In this document: positions 46,354 through 56,846 of the stretch, in pieces
How positions within the stretch are numbered: the stretch's first letter is position 1
Layout of the letters: each line of letters opens with the position of its first letter
DNA from: Cryobacterium sp. Y82
GTDB taxonomy: Bacteria > Actinomycetota > Actinomycetes > Actinomycetales > Microbacteriaceae
Assembly (NCBI RefSeq): GCF_002929495.1
Contig: NZ_PJJJ01000032.1
Span: 28,033 to 92,032 of the forward strand
Reading direction: 5' to 3'
Length of the DNA: 64,000 nt
Notes under the pieces: generated by a model
Database searches by the model: none
The model's input: the letters and a program-made list of their open reading frames with translations, nothing else
Told to the model about the DNA's origin: nothing
Program-made: the position numbers and the translations under genes

Positions 46354-46664
46354 TTACAGGGCACGAGGCGTGGCCGGGTTCGGGCGTGGGTGTGGTTGCG
46401 CTGCGTGGGAGTTGCGCCTTGGCCAGTACTCCCGCGCATTTCGTAGCGCTGGACCTGCGCCAGTACGCGGTAGTTCCGCCTCCCGCGCAGCGGCTCAACT
46501 CCCGCGTGGCGTGAAACGGATGCTCGCGGTCATCCGTCGCTCAGTGGATGGCACGCCGTGACGAACCGCGTGTTCCTCCTCCACAGGTGGGTGTGGGCCC
46601 TGGGTTCTGCACGGAGGGGGCAAGCCGCCTCCCGCAGCAGGCGCCTTCCGGACACTCTGGTTCT
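46354..46664. other. non-coding gap with dispersed repeat
   Basis: A 311-base gap between the M1 peptidase and the second AbiEi-like gene. It contains one copy of a 76-base repeat (46447-46522) and degenerate fragments of it from about 46396. I see no gene. Confidence 0.65.
46447..46522 (+). repeat. 76-base dispersed repeat, left copy
   Basis: It begins CGCTGGACCTGCGCCAGT and ends CGTGGCGTGAAACGGATG. It matches 47811-47886 closely across its length and contains a hairpin. Confidence 0.8.
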
Positions 46665-47729
46665 ATGTCTCAGCCCGACCCAGAACCCAGCGCCAGCTTC
46701 GACATCGTTCCCCGAGGCGGCGCCGGCCTCATCTCCCAAACGAGCACCGACCCCGATCCTTGCAACGGCCTCATCCTCGCGTCTGATCTGGCAAGCGCCC
46801 TGGGCGTCGATTTTCGCTTGCGACGGGAATCAACACGGGGCCGACTGCAGCGGGTGAGCCGCGGTCTGTACTACCCCAGCGCGCGTTGGAACCAATTGCG
46901 GGAGGACCAGCGCTATCTGATCCGGGTGCGCGGGGCTGCCCTCATCCGGCGCGGTCAGGCGGTGCTCTGCCACCACTCGGCCGCCGTGCTCTGGGGGCTG
47001 CCGATGCTCGTCGGCTGGCCGGGGGAGGTGCATCTGCTCACCGAACGAGCCTCGGGCGGACGATCGGATCCGGGTATTCGCAGGCATGCTCTCGGCATGG
47101 ATTCCCGCGACGTCACGACCATCGACGGACTACTCGTGACGACCGTCGACCGCACCGTGGTCGATTTGGCGGCGACCCTCGATCTGAAATCCGCCGTGGC
47201 AGTGGTCGACCGCGCGCTCTATCAGGACCGGTTTAGACGCACCCTAACCCTGACTACCAAGGTTGCGCTTCTGGCCACGCTTGAGCGGATGCTGCCCTTT
47301 CGCGGTTCCCGCCGCGCCCGCGCGATCATCCAGTTCGGAACGCATCTCTCCGGTTCGCCAGCGGAATCGGCTAGTCGGGTGAACATCGCCCTGAGCGGCT
47401 TTCCCGAACCGGAACTGCAGCATCCGTTCATCATCGATGGCAAGGAGTGCGAGACCGACTTCTACTGGCCCGAGATCGACGGTGTGGGGGAGTGCGACGG
47501 TCGGGACAAGTATTTCAACGCGAAGTATCTGGCCGGTCGCTCTCCCGAGCAGGTACAGTATGACGAGAAGCTGCGCGAGGACGGAATTCGCCGTCAGGTA
47601 CATGGATTCACCCGCTGGCCGGCTTCGGTCGGGATGAGCCAGTACTCCCTGCGGCGGCGGCTCCTGGAGCTCGGACTGCAGCCCGGCCCGCAGCGCGCCC
47701 TGCGCGGCCTGGAACGCCCCCAGCCATAA
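46665..47729 (+). CDS. AbiEi/DUF559-type protein, second paralogue
   Basis: A 354-residue protein with the same layout as the one at 10716: a winged-helix AbiEi-like start (GRLQRVSRGLYYP), the block VLCHHSAAVLWGLP (compare LVLSHHSAAVLHDLP), TVDRTVVDLAA, and a nuclease-like end with ESASRVNIALSGFPEPELQ, ETDFYW and ECDGRDKY. No partner toxin gene is present. The frame is open 39 codons upstream; ATG 46665 is chosen because similarity begins after it and a weak CACTCT lies six bases before it. It is bracketed by direct copies of a dispersed repeat. Confidence 0.75.
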   Translation: MSQPDPEPSASFDIVPRGGAGLISQTSTDPDPCNGLILASDLASALGVDFRLRRESTRGRLQRVSRGLYYPSARWNQLREDQRYLIRVRGAALIRRGQAVLCHHSAAVLWGLPMLVGWPGEVHLLTERASGGRSDPGIRRHALGMDSRDVTTIDGLLVTTVDRTVVDLAATLDLKSAVAVVDRALYQDRFRRTLTLTTKVALLATLERMLPFRGSRRARAIIQFGTHLSGSPAESASRVNIALSGFPEPELQHPFIIDGKECETDFYWPEIDGVGECDGRDKYFNAKYLAGRSPEQVQYDEKLREDGIRRQVHGFTRWPASVGMSQYSLRRRLLELGLQPGPQRALRGLERPQP

Positions 47730-47748: not shown

Positions 47749-47886
47749 CGCTGGACTTGCGCCAGTGCGCGGGAGTTCCGGTCTGGGCGGAACTCCAGCA
47801 CCACGCGTCGCGCTGGACTTGCGCCAGTGCGCGGGAGTTGCGCCTCCCGCGCAGCGGCGCAACTCCCGCGTGGCGTGAAACGGATG
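47749..47886 (+). repeat. dispersed repeat, tandem right copies with strong hairpin
   Basis: A 29-base unit starting CGCTGGACTTGCGCCAGT occurs at 47749-47777 and 47811-47839. The second belongs to a full copy (47811-47886). That copy holds a perfect 15-base stem CGCGGGAGTTGCGCC (47830-47844)/GGCGCAACTCCCGCG (47856-47870). It lies between two convergent genes and may act as a terminator. Confidence 0.85.
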
Positions 47887-47906
47887 GCCGCACGCTGGCG
47901 CCGAGC

Positions 47907-49671: not shown

Positions 49672-52600
49672 GTGTGGCACCTCGATAAAAAACAAGATGA
49701 CGACGACGTGCTTTCCAAGTACCTGGGCGGCGTCCCTGTCGACCCGCAAAACGTGACCAGTCCACACAACCTCAGTCTGGGCGACCCGGCCTTCACCGCG
49801 GGAAACATCGCCGAACCGGTCTGGCAACGCTGGCGCGACGAACTAGCAGCCCTCGGCGGACGATCGCCCCTGCTGCACTTCACCGACGAAGCCCGCACCC
49901 GCATCGAGCTCAGCGCCACGCACCCCGGCGGTCTGCCGCAGTTCATCATCGGCAAAACGACGCTGCTGTCCAACCTCATTCGCGACGAACTGGCGCTGCG
50001 CAACGCCCGCCTGGCCGCGAACGAGATCACCCAGAAAGGCATCGAACTGCGCTCCATGCGCGGCCTCGAGTCTGTCAACCTCGCCATCGGCCTTGCGGAG
50101 TGGCGCTATCAGGACATTGATTACAGTGCCCCGGTGCTGCTGCGTCCCCTCGCTATTCGTCGGTACGGACGCGACTACGAACTCAAGCTCAAGGGTCAGC
50201 CTTTTCTCAATCCCGAACTCGCCCGTGCCTTGAAAGACCAGTTTCAGATCGTGCTCGACGCCGACGCTTTTGTGGCGCTCGCCGTGACCAATGGCGCGTT
50301 CAAGCCGCAACCTGTCATCGACCGGCTGCGCGGGCTTACCTCGCACCTGCCCTGGTTCAACGTCGTACCCCGCCTCGTCGTCTCCTCATTCGCAGACGTG
50401 GGCCGGGCGCTCGCCGCCGACGCGTCGAACCTCGACCATCCGCTGCTCGACGCCGTTGCCGGCAACATGACCGCTCGGCGCAACATCGAGACCGCCTATA
50501 ACCCGGTCGTACCAATCGGGCAGGACGCCCGCCCGCCCGCCACCGACACGCTGCTCGGTGACGCCGACTCCGAGCAGGAGAACGTTGTCGCGCAGATCGC
50601 AGCCGGCAACTCCCTCGTCGTGAAAACGCTGCCCGGCACCGGTGGCACCCAAACGATCGTCAACGCGATCGGCTCGCTCGTGGCCCAGCACAAACGGGTG
50701 CTCGTGGTGAGCGCCCGCCGCTCCAGCCTCGATGGCATCCACGGCCGCCTCGTGCAGGTGGGCCTGCCCGGCATCGCCGTCACCCCGCGCACCCTGCGCC
50801 GCGACCTGATCCAGTCGATCACCCGAAACGAGAGAGCGGCCCAGCCGCGGGTCGGCGACGTCGATGACGCACTCGTGCGCCTGCGCAAGGTGCTGCTCGA
50901 CTACCGTTCGGCGCTCACTCGTCGCGACTCCGCTCTCGGCGTCTCTGTGCTCGACGCGCTGGGCGAACTCGCCCGGCTCGCTCAGCTGTCTGAGCCGCCG
51001 TCGACCACGGCCCGCCTCGACCGGCACGCCCTCGAACTTCTCGCCCATTCCCGGTCGGCCGCCGCCAACACCCTGATCAAGGCCGCCGTTCTCGGCGAAT
51101 TTCGGTACGGACCCGGCGACTCGCCCTGGTACGGCGCCTCGTTCACCTCCACAGCGGATGCCTCCAACTCGCACCAGCTCGCCAAACGCATCAACCAGAT
51201 CGAACTGCCCCGGCTGCTTGAACGCGCCAACGGCCTGATCGGTCAGACCCGGTTGCGCCCGTTCGAGACGATCAACGAACTCGGGATCTACCTGCGTCTG
51301 CTGCTGGATATTCGCGAAACCCTCGACAAATTTCAGCCCGGCGTCTACGACCGGTCGCTCACCGAGTTGATCGCCGCCACGTCGTCGAGGCGTGAATCGT
51401 CTGAGATGAGTTCGGCCAGTCGGCGCAGGCTGCGAAAGCTCGCCGAGGAATACCAGCGCCCCGGCGTGCGGGTCAACGACATGAACGAGAGCCTGCGGCG
51501 CATCCAGAGCCAGCGAACGCTCTGGCAGCGCTACGCAGCTGCCGGCGTCACTCCGGAGGTGCCGGTCGGCATTAACGACGTGCACGTTGCTTTTCAGCGA
51601 GTCTCGGAAGACCTCGGTCTGCTCGACATTCCGCTCGGCACCAGCGGCACGCCCCGGGCCCTGGCCGGGCGTCAGCTGAATGAGCTGGTAGCGATGATCT
51701 CCGGCCTCGCCGCTGAGAGCGAGGTTCTCGCGAACCTGCACGAGCGCACAGCGCTGCTGGCGACGCTACGCGAACACAACCTTGACCCGCTGATGACCGA
51801 CCTGTCCCAGCGCCACGTGTCGGAAGAGAACGTCGCCGGCGAGCTCGAGCTGGCCTGGTGGCAGTCCGTGCTCGAAATCATGCTCGCGAGCGACCGGGCA
51901 TTGCTGGGTGCCAACACCCAGGTGCTGGACCGCCTCGAGGCTGATTTCAAACTCGTCGACGAAGCCCACGCATCCGCTACCGGCAAGCTGCTGGCCTGGT
52001 TGCTCGCCGAAACCTGGAAGATCGGCGTCGTCGACTTTCCCGAGGAAGCCGACCAGCTGCGCCGTCTGCTGCGCGCCGATCGTGCCACCCCGGCCCGACT
52101 CAATGACGTCGCACCCCACCTCGGTCGAGTGCTCGCCCCGGTCTGGCTGGCCTCGCCCTACGAGATCGCCGGAATCAGCGACCAGATCACCTTCGATACC
52201 GTGTTGCTGGTTGACGCCGGAGCCACGACCCTCGCTGAAAACGTCGGTGCGATTCGCCGCGGCCGACAGATCGTCGCGTTCGGCGATCCGGTCACCCAGA
52301 CGCCGTCAGCATTCGAGACCGGCATCGCCGGTTCGGGGGAGACCGTTGCGCCCGACGCGTCGGTGGACGCCCTGCACGCCGACTCTGCCCTGGCCCGCCT
52401 CGGCGAACTGCTGCCGACCCTCACGCTCACCCGCAGCTATCGGGCTGGCGGGGAGGACCTCGCTGAGCTCGTCAACCATCGCTTCTACGGCGGACGCATC
52501 GATTCCCTGCCCTGGGCCGGAAGTTTTCTCGGCCACGGCAGCCTCACCATCAACTATGTGGCCGGCGGCCGCGGCATGCCCGACGTCGATAGTGGCGCCA

Positions 52601-53454
52601 TCGAGAGCGTCGACGCGGAGGTCGTGAAGGTTGTCGATCTCGTGCTCGACCACGCCTCGAAGCGTCCGCGCGAATCGCTTATGGTGATCACCGCGAGCAC
52701 CCGGCACGCCGTGCGGGTGCAGCAGGCCGTGCTCGCAGCGTTTGCCAAGCGCACCGACCTTTCCGACTTCATTCTCAAAGATCGCAGCGAACCGTTCACC
52801 GTACTCACCCTCGAGCAGGCCGTGGCACAGAGCCGCGACCGGGTCATTTTCTCGATCGGCTACGGCCGCACCCCACACGGTCGTCTGCTCTCGAACTTCG
52901 GTTCACTCGGCGAACCGGGCGGGGAACGCCTGCTTGCGATCGGCATGACCCGTGCACGTCGCGCGCTCGACATCGTCTCCTGCTTTCGCCCCGCCGACAT
53001 CGACGAGGACCGCCAGCGTCACGGTATTCTCGCCCTGTCCCAAGTGCTCAGCGAGACCGAAGCCCGTCGTGACGAGGTGCAGGTTCCCGACGCGAGCGAG
53101 GCCATGCTGGTCGATCTCGGCCACCGCCTCGAGAAGCTCGGCCTCAGTGTGCGCCTCGGCCACCGCGGCAAGCTGGCCCTCGCCGCCTCCTACGGCACCC
53201 GCGCCATCGTGGTCGAGACGGATGCCGTCGTCAATCGTGCGAGCCTGCGCGAGTCGCTTCGGCTGCGCCCCGAAGTGCTGCGCCGACTCGGCTGGCACTA
53301 CCTGCGCGTGCACAGCTTCGAACTGTTCAGCAACCCCGACGCCGTCGCGGCGCGCGTGGCCGCAATCGCCGGTGTTCCGGCGGCGGATGCCGCTCCGCGT
53401 GCCTTTCCAGCCGGCGACGCCCCCACAGTCACCCCGAAACGCCCGGGCGCGTGA
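49672..53454 (+). CDS. degenerate SF1 helicase / nuclease-like fusion protein
   Basis: A 1260-residue protein laid out like UPF1/DNA2-type superfamily 1 helicases with a C-terminal MTES_1575/Vsr-like endonuclease domain. The key residues are changed. The Walker A loop reads LPGTGGT, with Gly at 325 in place of Lys. Walker B reads LLVDAGA, with Ala at 849 in place of Glu. The later motif TLEQAVAQSRDRVIFS and the helicase-like end GGERLLAIGMTRARRALDIV are recognisable. The end (about 1150-1235; IVVETD, LRLRPEVLRRLGW) resembles the nuclease but seems to lack its first Asp. It starts at GTG 49672 after TAGGGT and six bases. It is coupled to the next gene by GTGA. Confidence 0.75.
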   Translation: MWHLDKKQDDDDVLSKYLGGVPVDPQNVTSPHNLSLGDPAFTAGNIAEPVWQRWRDELAALGGRSPLLHFTDEARTRIELSATHPGGLPQFIIGKTTLLSNLIRDELALRNARLAANEITQKGIELRSMRGLESVNLAIGLAEWRYQDIDYSAPVLLRPLAIRRYGRDYELKLKGQPFLNPELARALKDQFQIVLDADAFVALAVTNGAFKPQPVIDRLRGLTSHLPWFNVVPRLVVSSFADVGRALAADASNLDHPLLDAVAGNMTARRNIETAYNPVVPIGQDARPPATDTLLGDADSEQENVVAQIAAGNSLVVKTLPGTGGTQTIVNAIGSLVAQHKRVLVVSARRSSLDGIHGRLVQVGLPGIAVTPRTLRRDLIQSITRNERAAQPRVGDVDDALVRLRKVLLDYRSALTRRDSALGVSVLDALGELARLAQLSEPPSTTARLDRHALELLAHSRSAAANTLIKAAVLGEFRYGPGDSPWYGASFTSTADASNSHQLAKRINQIELPRLLERANGLIGQTRLRPFETINELGIYLRLLLDIRETLDKFQPGVYDRSLTELIAATSSRRESSEMSSASRRRLRKLAEEYQRPGVRVNDMNESLRRIQSQRTLWQRYAAAGVTPEVPVGINDVHVAFQRVSEDLGLLDIPLGTSGTPRALAGRQLNELVAMISGLAAESEVLANLHERTALLATLREHNLDPLMTDLSQRHVSEENVAGELELAWWQSVLEIMLASDRALLGANTQVLDRLEADFKLVDEAHASATGKLLAWLLAETWKIGVVDFPEEADQLRRLLRADRATPARLNDVAPHLGRVLAPVWLASPYEIAGISDQITFDTVLLVDAGATTLAENVGAIRRGRQIVAFGDPVTQTPSAFETGIAGSGETVAPDASVDALHADSALARLGELLPTLTLTRSYRAGGEDLAELVNHRFYGGRIDSLPWAGSFLGHGSLTINYVAGGRGMPDVDSGAIESVDAEVVKVVDLVLDHASKRPRESLMVITASTRHAVRVQQAVLAAFAKRTDLSDFILKDRSEPFTVLTLEQAVAQSRDRVIFSIGYGRTPHGRLLSNFGSLGEPGGERLLAIGMTRARRALDIVSCFRPADIDEDRQRHGILALSQVLSETEARRDEVQVPDASEAMLVDLGHRLEKLGLSVRLGHRGKLALAASYGTRAIVVETDAVVNRASLRESLRLRPEVLRRLGWHYLRVHSFELFSNPDAVAARVAAIAGVPAADAAPRAFPAGDAPTVTPKRPGA

Positions 53455-53669
53455 GCGGCTCGGAGGATGTGCCACCCCTGGGATCGGCGCGCCAGCCGAT
53501 CGTGAAGGCGGCAGGCAAGGCCCGGCGCGCCAGACTTCTGCCCGCGCCGGATACCGACCCCAACCCGCACCCGCCGGTACTGCGGGAAGAGGGCGGCGTC
53601 GCCCACACTGGCAGCGCACCGAGCGCGAACGAGGCACAGTTGCGGCAGGATCGCCCGCCGCACTGGTAG
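53451..53669 (+). CDS. small protein coupled to the helicase-like gene
   Basis: A 72-residue protein, Pro/Arg-rich, with no membrane segment. The C-terminus (EAQLRQDRPPHW) looks like a conserved tail motif. GTG 53451 overlaps the helicase-like stop as GTGA, so its translation depends on that gene. I do not recognise a function; it may be a partner subunit. Confidence 0.6.
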   Translation: MSGSEDVPPLGSARQPIVKAAGKARRARLLPAPDTDPNPHPPVLREEGGVAHTGSAPSANEAQLRQDRPPHW

Positions 53670-53672
53670 CTG

Positions 53673-54101
53673 CTAGTGTTTGGGGCCCTGGTCGGCTGCG
53701 GCGTTCTTGGCCAGCAGATCGCGGATCTCGGTGAGCAGGTCGAGCTCGGTTGTGGGGTCCACGACGACGGCCGCAGGAATGCCCGCGTTGCGACGGCGGT
53801 CCTGCGACTCCTTGAGCTTGTTCAGCGGCAGCACGATCGCAAAGTAGACCACCGCAGCGATCAGCAGGAAGTTGATCAGCGCGCCAATGACGGCACCGAA
53901 CAAAATGCCGTCCCCACCCCGGAGCGGGAGGACGAGCGAGTCTGCCAGGGACTCGGCGCTGAAGATCGACGCGATCAGCGGGTTGAAGATGCTCGTGACG
54001 ATGGCGGTGACGAGCGCGGTGAACGCGGTGCCGATGACGACGGCGACCGCGAGGTCGATGACGTTGCCGCGCATGATGAATTCTTTGAAACCGTTGATCA
54101 C
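53673..54101 (-). CDS. mscL: large-conductance mechanosensitive channel
   Basis: A 142-residue MscL channel that opens under membrane tension to release solutes in osmotic shock. The N-terminal amphipathic helix GFKEFIMRGN, TM1 (VIDLAVAVVIGTAFTALV) and TM2 (FGAVIGALINFLLIAAVVYF) are followed by a charged C-terminal helix bundle. GTG 54101 has GGAG seven bases upstream and gives the family N-terminus; an ATG at 54149 would add 16 residues. Confidence 0.95.
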   Translation of the reverse strand: MINGFKEFIMRGNVIDLAVAVVIGTAFTALVTAIVTSIFNPLIASIFSAESLADSLVLPLRGGDGILFGAVIGALINFLLIAAVVYFAIVLPLNKLKESQDRRRNAGIPAAVVVDPTTELDLLTEIRDLLAKNAAADQGPKH

Positions 54102-54153
54102 GGGGTGCTCCAAACGGATAACTTGGGCGACCGTCTTTGTCAGCGCCATCTGC

Positions 54154-54522
54154 CTAAGACGCCTTCGCGGCCGGAACGGAGGAGGACGAGGAGGAAGAGG
54201 ACGCCGAGCTGTCTTTCTTCGCCGGCGTACTGTCGGACTTCTTCGCGGACTTGGTTTCGGCGGGTTTGCTCGCCGAAGAGTCGGACTTGTCGGCTGATTT
54301 CTCGGTCGGCTTGCGGTCGAGATTCGGGTTGGACCGCTTCGCATCCGCTTTGGAATCGTTGCTGTAGAAACCCGAGCCGCTGAAGGTCACGCCGATCGAG
54401 GAGAACACCTTGCGCAGCTTTCCCTGGCAGGTCGGGCACACCGTGAGCGAGTGGTCGGTGAAGGCCTGCTGGATATCGAAAGCGGTGTCGCACGCGGTGC
54501 AACGGTAAGAGTAGGTAGGCAC
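54154..54522 (-). CDS. FmdB-type zinc-ribbon protein
   Basis: A 122-residue small regulatory-type protein. The zinc ribbon is YRCTACDTAFD...VCPTCQGKLRKVFS (residues about 5-45). It is followed by a low-complexity Ser/Lys/Ala tail. GTG 54522 has GGAG in front. FmdB proteins lie next to mscL and the 5-formyl-THF cyclo-ligase gene in many actinobacteria, as here. The function is unclear. Confidence 0.9.
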   Translation of the reverse strand: MPTYSYRCTACDTAFDIQQAFTDHSLTVCPTCQGKLRKVFSSIGVTFSGSGFYSNDSKADAKRSNPNLDRKPTEKSADKSDSSASKPAETKSAKKSDSTPAKKDSSASSSSSSSSVPAAKAS

Positions 54523-54629
54523 TGCATCTCCAGCTGGTTGAGCCGACAGGCAAACGCCTGCCAAGACTAAGGTTATGCGCGCACAGACCCCCGCAGGTTC
54601 AGAACCGGGGTCCCAGGCGGTGAAAACGG

Positions 54630-55208
54630 TTAGAAAGCGATGATTCGGGTCGGCGTCACGAGGCCGTTGACGGGCTGATCGTGCACTTCGCGGGGAACTT
54701 CATCGAGGTACTCGCTGTCGAAGACGACGGCGTATACCGGCGGGCATTTCTCCATCGAGCCGAGGGTCTTGTCGAAGTAGCCGCGACCCCAGCCCATGCG
54801 CAGTCCCGACTCGTCCACGGCCGCCGCCGGAACAATGATGAGGTCGACGTCATTGATGGCGATTGGCCCGAGCAGGGTTCCCACGGCCTCTGGGACGCCG
54901 GAAATTCCGGTGAATTCCTCGTCACCGTCGCCGACGGTCCAATCGAGCAGGCCGTCTTCGCGCGAAATGGGGAAGAGAACGCGAATGCCTTCTGCCGTAG
55001 CCCAGTTGAGAAAAGGCCGGGTATCAGGTTCGTTGCGGGCTGACAGGTAGCAGGAGATCGACCGCGCTGACAGGTCGAGAACAAGGCTTTGCAGATTTTC
55101 CGTGAAGCCGGCCGTGGCGAAGTCGCGCTCCGAGGACGTCAGGTTCTGACGGCGTTCGCGTAATTCCGCTCGTAGCGCACGCTTTCGATGAGCTATGTCG
55201 GAGTCCAT
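54630..55208 (-). CDS. 5-formyltetrahydrofolate cyclo-ligase
   Basis: A 192-residue ATP-dependent enzyme that recycles 5-formyl-THF to methenyl-THF. The active-site motif GLRMGWGRGYFDKTL and the early basic helix RKRALRAELRERR are as in the family. ATG 55208 is chosen with AGGA upstream; ATG 55217 is an alternative. It is divergent from galU with only 34 bases between the starts, so promoters overlap. Confidence 0.92.
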   Translation of the reverse strand: MDSDIAHRKRALRAELRERRQNLTSSERDFATAGFTENLQSLVLDLSARSISCYLSARNEPDTRPFLNWATAEGIRVLFPISREDGLLDWTVGDGDEEFTGISGVPEAVGTLLGPIAINDVDLIIVPAAAVDESGLRMGWGRGYFDKTLGSMEKCPPVYAVVFDSEYLDEVPREVHDQPVNGLVTPTRIIAF

Positions 55209-55229
55209 ATAAGGCATCCTACTTGCCAC

Positions 55230-55235
55230 TAACCT
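55230..55235 (+). promoter_or_regulatory. -10 element of a leaderless promoter for galU
   Basis: TAACCT, seven bases, then the ATG at 55243. Confidence 0.5.
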
Positions 55236-55242
55236 AGTGCCC

Positions 55243-56136
55243 ATGGGTACCCCGATAACTAAAGCAGTCATTCCCGCAGCTGGACTCGGAACACGCTTCC
55301 TCCCAGCGACCAAGGCCATGCCAAAGGAGATGCTGCCCGTCGTCGACAAGCCGGCTATTCAATACGTCGTCGAAGAAGCGGTCGCGGCCGGGCTCAGCGA
55401 CGTGCTGATGGTTACCGGGCGCAACAAGAACGCCCTGGAGAACCATTTCGATCGCATGACTGAGCTCGAGGCCATGTTGGAACGCAAGGGGGACCAGACC
55501 CGGCTGGCCAAGGTGCGTGAATCCAACGAGCTCGCCGACATCCACTATGTGCGGCAGGGCGACCCGCGCGGACTCGGCCACGCCGTACTGCGGTCGCGGA
55601 TGCACGTGGGAAACGAGCCGTTCGCGGTGCTGCTCGGTGACGACATCATCGACTCGCGCGACCCGCTGCTGACCCGCATGCTCGAAGAGCAGATCAAGCG
55701 TGGCGCCAGCATCGTTGCCCTGCTCGAGGTCGACCCTTCACAGATTCATATGTACGGGGCGGCTGCGGTCGAAGCTACCGATGACCCTGACGTCGTGCGC
55801 ATCACCGGCCTCGTCGAGAAGCCCAGCGCCGAAGATGCCCCTTCCAACCTCGCCATCATCGGCCGGTATGTGTTGCGTCCCGAAATTTTCGATATTCTGG
55901 AACACACGGCGCCCGGCAAGGGCAACGAGATTCAGCTCACCGATGCCCTGCAGGAGATGGCTGTCACCCCGGAGTCCACCGGCGGCGTGTACGGCCTGAT
56001 CTTTCGTGGCCGTCGTTATGACACCGGCGACCGGCTCGATTACATCAAGGCGATCGTGCAGCTCGCCGTCGATCGTGAAGATCTCGGTGCCGACCTCAAG
56101 CCGTGGCTGCGCGAATTCGTCGCCACCCTGCACTAA
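55243..56136 (+). CDS. galU: UTP-glucose-1-phosphate uridylyltransferase
   Basis: A 297-residue nucleotidyltransferase making UDP-glucose for polysaccharide and wall precursors. The nucleotide loop AAGLGTRFLPATKAMPKEM, GDDIID and VEKPSAEDAPSN are the family marks. A GTG two codons earlier (55237) is in frame; ATG 55243 fits both the family N-terminus and the leaderless promoter. A GNAT acetyltransferase follows. Confidence 0.96.
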   Translation: MGTPITKAVIPAAGLGTRFLPATKAMPKEMLPVVDKPAIQYVVEEAVAAGLSDVLMVTGRNKNALENHFDRMTELEAMLERKGDQTRLAKVRESNELADIHYVRQGDPRGLGHAVLRSRMHVGNEPFAVLLGDDIIDSRDPLLTRMLEEQIKRGASIVALLEVDPSQIHMYGAAAVEATDDPDVVRITGLVEKPSAEDAPSNLAIIGRYVLRPEIFDILEHTAPGKGNEIQLTDALQEMAVTPESTGGVYGLIFRGRRYDTGDRLDYIKAIVQLAVDREDLGADLKPWLREFVATLH

Positions 56137-56186
56137 CGATTTTCCCCGCCCAACCCGGCTTCTCACCCACGACAGACAGGCGAACC

Positions 56187-56846
56187 GTGCCGATCGCAAT
56201 TCCGACCCTCCGTGAGGGAGCAGTCACCCTGCGTCCCATCCGATTGCGCGATTCGCGCGCTCTCGAGGGCGAACTGCTGGCGAACCGCTCGTGGTTGCGC
56301 AAGTGGGAGGCGACCAACCCCTACGCCCCAATGTCTTTCGACACGCGCGCGAGCATCCGCAGCCTGTTGACGCATTCGCGGTCGGGCAACGGCTTGCCGT
56401 TCATTGTGGAACACAACGGCGAACTGGCCGGTCAACTAAACGTGTCGTCGATCACCTGGGGATCGCTGTCGTCGGCCACCATCGGATACTGGGTCAGTGA
56501 AAAGTTTGCCGGCCAGTCGGTCACCCCCACGGCTGTCGCGCTCGCGACGGACTACTGCTTCTATCAGCTCGGCCTGCACCGCATGGAGATCTGCATTCGT
56601 CCCGAGAACAAGGCCAGCCTGCGCGTCGTTGAAAAGCTCGGCTTTCGGTATGAGGGCCTGCGCCGACGGTATATCCACATCAACGGCGACTGGCGCGACC
56701 ATTTCTGCTTCGGCCTGGTCGCCGAGGAACTCAGCCAGGGCGTCATGCGCCGCTGGCAAGATGACCTGGTACCAGCGGATGCGGCGAGCGTCACCGCGTC
56801 AGATTTGGAGTCGGCCGCGCACCCGGTGCGTGTCATCACCCGATGA
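56187..56846 (+). CDS. RimJ/RimL-type GNAT acetyltransferase
   Basis: A 219-residue N-acetyltransferase. TLRPIRLRDSRALEGEL starts the fold. IGYWVSEKFAGQSVTPTAVAL is the acetyl-CoA loop region, and NKASLRVVEKLGFRYEGLRRRYIHINGDWRDH is the RimJ-type end. It could acetylate a ribosomal or other protein N-terminus; the substrate is unknown. GTG 56187 is chosen from alignment, the upstream region being galU. Confidence 0.9.
   Translation: MPIAIPTLREGAVTLRPIRLRDSRALEGELLANRSWLRKWEATNPYAPMSFDTRASIRSLLTHSRSGNGLPFIVEHNGELAGQLNVSSITWGSLSSATIGYWVSEKFAGQSVTPTAVALATDYCFYQLGLHRMEICIRPENKASLRVVEKLGFRYEGLRRRYIHINGDWRDHFCFGLVAEELSQGVMRRWQDDLVPADAASVTASDLESAAHPVRVITR

Follow-up and report, generated by a model that had tools for sequence, protein, structure and literature searches.

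Helicase cores joined to Vsr-type nucleases are found in defence proteins of the ProA, Hhe and MTES_1575 type, and MTES_1575 itself is given, in the excerpted account of its source, more than 2000 residues with HEPN and wHTH/DUF3320 parts (PMC3710099). Pseudohelicases are also already known as a kind. RecC and AddB appear in excerpts of the literature as inactivated superfamily 1 (SF1) helicase folds that read Chi (PMC4824097), and the PriA of Deinococcus radiodurans, in a partial text, as a protein that keeps DNA and DnaB binding without an ATPase (PMC4504706). In Pseudomonas aeruginosa, according to a passage of a further paper, a large DUF4011 gene and a small hypothetical gene flank the defence hotspot cDHS1 in every isolate (PMC10250203). 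Here we describe a gene pair in a 64,000-nucleotide stretch of Cryobacterium sp. Y82 (Microbacteriaceae; contig NZ_PJJJ01000032.1, positions 28,033 to 92,032), called the window below. HEL is the name that we use for its 1260-residue helicase-nuclease-like protein, and PPHW, after its C-terminal motif, that for the small protein encoded next to it.

HEL is an old, selected pseudoenzyme and not a decaying gene, because it is retained almost universally at a conserved locus, has lost its catalytic motifs jointly, and shows a low ratio of nonsynonymous to synonymous substitution (dN/dS, or omega). We give about even chances to the view that it serves as a nucleic-acid scaffold or sensor brought to a partner by the PPHW tail. 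A literature search found no account of the HEL family, its order-wide retention or the PPHW partner; a Micrococcus luteus paper that came up is, as far as its excerpt goes, unrelated to HEL (PMC8467076).

Loss of the Catalytic Residues

A preliminary description of the window, made from its letters, had read a Walker A loop with glycine in place of lysine and a Walker B motif with alanine in place of glutamate, in a fully open frame whose C-terminal endonuclease-like domain keeps VVETD and seems to lack its first acidic residue. These readings hold (Table 1). The frame opens with GTG and runs without interruption through 1260 codons. In a test for an active SF1B enzyme (Walker A GK[ST] plus Walker B DE) HEL fails, reading GGT and DAG, and in the alignment KLALAA stands where intact relatives carry RIDLAV or TIDLAV, VVETD being retained. 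Nor is an intact Walker A found elsewhere: the whole protein holds no GxxxxGK[ST] P-loop, and its sole GK[ST], IIGKTT at residue 94, has no P-loop around it. HEL reaches none of the Pfam cut-offs for AAA_11, AAA_12, MTES_1575 (PF18741) and DUF4011 (PF13195). From its motifs, ATP hydrolysis by HEL is predicted to be absent.

The same loss is seen across orthologues. Among 179 loci from 179 genomes, 178 of which could be scored for the Walker motifs, the Walker A lysine and the Walker B glutamate are both lost in 172 and both intact in 6, with no mixed case. Of 80 named loci, 78 fit the regular expression for the loop, all lacking the lysine, and two escaped it. The two losses are thus conserved together, a check that the preliminary description had proposed, but the glycine itself is not: it occupies residue 325 in only 70 of 92 rows of the window's family, with other residues elsewhere. 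The surrounding loop is more conserved in the family than residue 325 (G322 in 92/92 rows, Q327 in 91/92), as if these residues were kept for shape.

Orthologues with normal GK[ST] and DEAS motifs, which the preliminary description had considered as a sign that this copy alone was mutated, do exist, but they are the six mentioned above and none belongs to the window's family. In our handles for loci (L) and families (f) these are L096 and L224 (f5), L171, L172 and L219 (f18), and L210 (f45). The first five adjoin mscL and fmdB, as the window's HEL does, and have PPHW, which is fused to HEL in L219 and a gene of its own in the other four; catalysis was therefore lost during the history of the HEL gene. 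L210 has neither these neighbours nor PPHW. The four intact orthologues tested all pass the Pfam cut-offs for AAA_11, AAA_12 and MTES_1575, and three pass DUF4011. MTES_1575 scores are 71-122 bits in four intact relatives and 32.1 bits in the dead-motor L026 (cut-off 38.2); DUF4011 scores are 29-48 bits in the intact L131, L028 and L152 and 21.8 bits in L171 (cut-off 22.2).

A quick tree of 79 rows, built without the motif columns, unites 61 rows in one clade whose members are all dead (Shimodaira-Hasegawa-like approximate likelihood-ratio test, SH-aLRT, 99). The fewest changes on it are four when intact defence rows are included and three among HEL rows, an approximate count, as branch support is SH-aLRT only, many rows deviate in composition and several forks are open. 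A linked loss of nuclease and motor was also considered and set aside; the tree offers only three independent pairs, so significance is unreachable.

A minor possibility is that a non-canonical site still lets HEL bind ATP, or hydrolyse it slowly, and that the protein is a nucleotide sensor rather than a pure scaffold. The loop reads GTGxTQT in most family rows and motif VI (TRAR) is strongly kept there, which speaks for such a sensor. Other families of the order, however, retain the gene, its locus and often its partner although nothing of the loop is left (e.g. SGRNGVSS, PPGSDAVG), and the Walker B glutamate is lost as well.

Distribution and Conserved Locus

HEL is a core gene of a bacterial order, which we take to be Actinomycetales in the GTDB sense, that holds the Microbacteriaceae and, judging by locus and sequence, apparently Actinomyces. 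All 40 relatives examined have it: the 25 genus genomes each carry it at one site (81-100% identity), and each of the 15 other families of the order gave a match. Within the family it is present in 119 of 120 genomes, the lone miss being an 82% complete genome that is also negative by profile, and within the order in 92 of 99 genomes at E <= 1e-25. A profile search recovered HEL in four of the seven order misses (G160, G176, G191 and G232), gave a short contig-end piece in G171 and found nothing in G210 and G196; with order genomes restricted to a completeness of 90% or more and a contamination of 5% or less, it raised the count from 89 to 93 of 94. Beyond the order, a match at E <= 1e-10 was obtained in 12 of 110 genomes of the class and covers the full length in nine (seven f38, one f25, one f45). 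HEL is retained even in genomes of 0.8-1.5 Mb (the window genome has 3.69 Mb). The named records with 96-98% identity come from Cryobacterium; by title or kinship, the best 80 of 570 loci all belong to Microbacteriaceae or actinobacterial bins. Plasmid records gave 44 matches, all below 60% identity; the eight listed are one Actinomyces oris HEL, five DUF3320 proteins and two unannotated.

Where the flanks are long, a recurrent gene order is HEL> MscL< FmdB< FCL< GalU> RimJ> (FCL, 5-formyltetrahydrofolate cyclo-ligase). MscL and Zn_ribbon_8 were named by Pfam; the other neighbours bear putative names, taken in part from their sequence and from the annotated A. oris locus. With window genes as queries, 35 family loci gave FCL in 33, RimJ in 32, GalU in 25, FmdB in 23 and MscL in 21, and 74 loci of other families gave FmdB in 50, MscL in 42, FCL in 32, RimJ in 21 and GalU in 9, some flanks being cut; all-against-all BLAST clustering was blurred by spurious GC-rich frames. 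None of the conserved neighbours was seen at loci such as L095, L104, L107 and L210. Upstream of HEL, DtxR-type, NlpC/P60, HNH and universal-stress genes recur in several deep lineages. In a record of A. oris labelled as a 415 kb plasmid, the order is metal-dependent regulator, C40 peptidase, universal stress protein, 'DNA helicase', hypothetical protein, mscL, SAF protein, FCL, glp and GNAT. The loop of this 'DNA helicase' reads PPGSDVA, and the hypothetical protein after it ends NDARLRRDVPPHWG.

This distribution bears on the idea of HEL as an anti-phage protein related to Hhe and ProA, which would sense phage nucleic acid and no longer need catalysis of its own. Its best curated matches are indeed ProA (NF058533, 279.5 bits), Hhe (NF042953, 130 bits) and the PADLOC candidate PDC-S37 (309 bits), but the first two lie far under their cut-offs of 1500 and 2000 bits. 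Three intact HEL orthologues score 772-865 bits against ProA and 497-644 against Hhe, all under the cut-offs too. HEL is near-universal and syntenic instead of patchy in variable loci, it persists in genomes of 0.8-1.5 Mb, and no relative was found among 29 stretches of viral contigs that fit the search patterns. Moreover, the intact-motif paralogues of defence type are separate genes. In 8 of the 25 genus genomes there are extra HEL-like genes whose frames stay open for about 1.7-2.2 thousand codons; the five that were read (L109, L110, L111 and L112, and L108 of another family) have intact GKS and DEAS motifs. The window genome has no extra HEL-like gene at E <= 0.001, and another AAA_12 protein lies at G000:C32 (genome and contig handles). 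The preliminary description had suggested a conserved pseudoenzyme with a partner and a structural or sensing role in DNA/RNA metabolism or defence; conservation and partner are borne out and a structural or binding role is probable, but a defence role is unlikely.

The PPHW Small Protein

The 72-residue protein that had been seen to start within the HEL stop codon (GTGA) is a genuine gene. Its start codon is conserved, with ATG in place of GTG in L002. An iterated profile seeded with it gave matches downstream of HEL at 160 of 224 loci (E <= 1e-3; this set includes duplicates and defence loci). Scored by motif, as a frame ending in PPH[WYFN] at most 9 residues from its end and lying at most 1.2 kb downstream of HEL or at HEL's own end, PPHW occurs in 163 of the 179 genomes, 142 with a gene of its own and 21 with a fusion to HEL, while two further loci are cut by contig ends; controls gave 1 of 170 on the opposite strand and 0 of 170 inside HEL. 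It was seen at 74 of the 80 named loci, and five of the other six end less than 160 bases past the matched part of HEL. The fused form is spread over six families (f1, f6, f10, f14, f16 and f18), which argues for a joint function. In three places (L129/L218, L132 and L133) a drifted peptide, ending CPPHWGNNIV or with KPPHW after YYRSQ, lies 160-262 bases downstream of HEL; such members help to delimit the core of the motif.

PPHW is wider than its link to HEL, and perhaps older. Profile A1 found PPHW proteins in 112 of 197 class genomes (E <= 0.001), including some where HEL gave no match, and all six matches in a search of 119 genomes of the phylum belong to the class. The class-wide consensus is EVLPDxTxDxxxxGWGD...NDxRLLxERPPHW (e.g. 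L225, L239, L244, L250 and L253). Beyond the order, 27 PPHW loci of the class were compared, and in 20 of them mscL or fmdB stands no more than about 1.5 kb away. Family f38, which often has HEL, supplies 14 of these 27 loci; among the 13 from other families the figure is 6.

No shared partner was found beside these genes: Pfam matches on ten frames next to PPHW (L244, L249, L250 and L253) were an ABC-2 transporter, a STAND NTPase and SAF proteins. Four PPHW members have no Pfam match over cut-off, and two further members and the window's copy have none in NCBIfam. The idea that PPHW is a tail common to several proteins per genome was rejected. A strict pattern ([DE]xPPHW, up to one more codon, then TAA or TGA) gave 14 matches in 40 genomes, at most one each and all at the known PPHW gene, with 6 matches for the reversed control; blind to TAG stops, the pattern misses the window's own copy.

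Fold

An AlphaFold2 (AF2) model of HEL residues 42-1238, built from 36 sequences, has a predicted local distance difference test score (pLDDT) of 88.6 and a predicted template modelling score of 0.77. Foldseek gave 74 PDB matches at E <= 0.001, headed by Setx, Aquarius in spliceosomes, Sen1, Upf1, IGHMBP2 and Dna2. In VIA-align, IGHMBP2 (4b3g_B) reached Z 21.0 over 507 aligned residues with a root-mean-square deviation of 3.9, and Dna2 (5ean_A) Z 19.6; UvrD also aligns (2is4_B, Z 18.1, 318 residues). IGHMBP2 (SMUBP-2) is the best PDB match by sequence as well (E 5.7e-16). As modelled, the overall fold of HEL is thus an SF1B, Upf1-like helicase core.

It is improbable that HEL acts as RecC or AddB do, as a regulatory subunit that reads a recombination signal in the DNA from within an active helicase-nuclease complex. 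HEL does combine a dead helicase with a dead nuclease in a way similar to the inactivated folds that read Chi, and UvrD is among the structures that align with it. Its nearest folds are SF1B, whereas the AddB domain is UvrD-like (PMC4824097, in excerpt), and no helicase partner was seen beside HEL in the loci examined.

The PPHW tail appears to be a flexible tether. In an AF2 model of the natural HEL-PPHW fusion L091 the mean pLDDT is 86.8, and residues 1141-1180 fall to 53-59; as far as a model can say, the tail is not a docked latch.

Selection

Against the six nearest genomes the dN/dS of HEL is 0.039-0.045, and against nine more distant genus genomes it is 0.09-0.17. The small PPHW gene has an omega of 0.06-0.20 against eight relatives. 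The high guanine-cytosine content yields many long spurious frames in the window, but these values, the order-wide retention and the PPHW controls of 1 and 0 in 170 rule out a decaying remnant followed by a chance frame.

Proposed Role and Points Against It

On the modelled fold, the loss of catalytic residues, the purifying selection, the order-wide conserved locus and the coupling or fusion to PPHW, a history can be proposed. The ancestor of HEL may have been an active SF1B helicase-Vsr nuclease of ProA/Hhe type, whose ATPase was lost in about three to four lineages while the nuclease was eroded too. What the helicase fold would have retained is the binding of nucleic acid, or of a nucleic-acid machine, with no unwinding; RecC, AddB and the PriA of D. 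radiodurans are the precedents. Whether supplied in cis or in trans, the flexible PPHW tail would bring HEL to a third partner, which would also be present in class members without HEL, because these have PPHW as well. On this view, HEL would do housekeeping work in DNA/RNA metabolism, as a scaffold or as a sensor. More tentatively, and with the odds somewhat against so full a picture, HEL and PPHW may form an undescribed housekeeping complex, in which a dead helicase-nuclease scaffold is joined, by operon or repeated fusion, to an older, class-wide recruitment peptide that marks a partner in many Actinomycetes.

Several observations weigh against this proposal. With regard to the nuclease, a rough regular expression still finds the first acid in 14 of the 69 rows that lack the lysine (such expressions miscall rows: L048 and L065 show a glutamate scored as absent, and in L146, L174 and L214 the acid was scored at another place), and the dead-motor L102 passes MTES_1575 (44.7 vs 38.2 bits); therefore, not every HEL copy is clearly nuclease-dead. 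Motif VI is eroded too in far lineages, so binding via the classical groove may not be general. With regard to the partner, 14 of 179 genomes have no PPHW motif within 1.2 kb of HEL, and the pair can be unlinked: in genome G034 (L104) HEL lies on contig C171, with 5.6 kb after it free of PPHW, and the PPHW gene on C29. PPHW also occurs without HEL; among 11 PPHW-positive class genomes outside the order, the HEL profile gave no match in eight, a partial defence-type match in two and a full HEL in one. Lastly, docking of the PPHW tail on HEL is not supported by the L091 model.

A core gene of about 1250 codons, present even in genomes down to 0.8-0.9 Mb, bears the label 'DNA helicase' in a public record though its motifs predict no helicase work, and it points to a basic process common to an order. 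Intact and dead orthologues at one locus, with a partner both split and fused, provide natural material on why a motorless helicase is kept and what the PPHW tail binds.

Features of the Window

The features discussed are collected in Table 1. Upstream of HEL, an AbiEi-antitoxin-like gene is flanked by two 126-bp direct copies (46402-46527 and 47766-47891, 83% identical) and also by a 41-bp unit in three copies.

Table 1. Positions of HEL, its partner and neighbouring features in the window.
Feature	Position	Strand	Evidence
HEL, predicted catalytically dead SF1B helicase/Vsr-nuclease-like protein	49672..53454	+	1260-codon open frame, orthologues, fold, omega
DUF4011-like N-terminal region, residues 63-184	49858..50223	+	below Pfam cut-off, 17.2 bits vs 22.2
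Degenerate Walker A LPGTGGT, residues 320-326, Gly325 for Lys	50629..50649	+	
Degenerate Walker B LLVDAGA, residues 845-851, Ala849 for Glu	52204..52224	+	
Vsr-type nuclease-like region, residues 1178-1230, first acid lost	53203..53361	+	MTES_1575 23.9 bits vs 38.2; alignment
PPHW small protein, 72 residues, GTGA overlap with the HEL TGA stop	53451..53669	+	profile and motif conservation, omega
C-terminal PPHW motif codons	53655..53666	+	
Conserved downstream neighbours: MscL (-), FmdB-type zinc ribbon (-), 5-formyltetrahydrofolate cyclo-ligase (-), GalU (+), RimJ-type acetyltransferase (+)	53673..56846		synteny
393-codon frame, weak AbiEi_4 match, 19.7 bits (cut-off 25)	46548..47729	+	Pfam

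Comparison with Known Systems

IGHMBP2, Upf1, Dna2 and Senataxin are active enzymes. They are the best fold matches of HEL, with 13-18% identity in their rows. In its layout, a disordered stretch closed by a fixed motif, the PPHW tail is reminiscent of the tail with which SSB recruits its partners. PriA belongs to another helicase superfamily than HEL. The D. radiodurans protein is likened to HEL as a bacterial housekeeping helicase homologue without ATPase (partial text of PMC4504706); it comes from a different phylum.

RecC and AddB share with HEL a helicase fold without catalysis, which in their case serves recognition (PMC4824097, in excerpt). They differ in being UvrD-like, as stated there for the AddB domain, and in lying inside a known complex, whereas HEL is nearest to SF1B, Upf1-like structures. 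The DUF4011 core gene at cDHS1 resembles HEL in being paired with a small gene; it belongs to another phylum, and the likeness is one of gene layout. Defence proteins of the ProA, Hhe and MTES_1575 type have the helicase core and the Vsr-type nuclease in common with HEL. HEL is shorter, with about 1250 codons vs 1903 and 1797 positions in the ProA and Hhe models, and, unlike these proteins, it is a syntenic core gene, by its motifs dead in 172 of 178 orthologues, and paired with PPHW.

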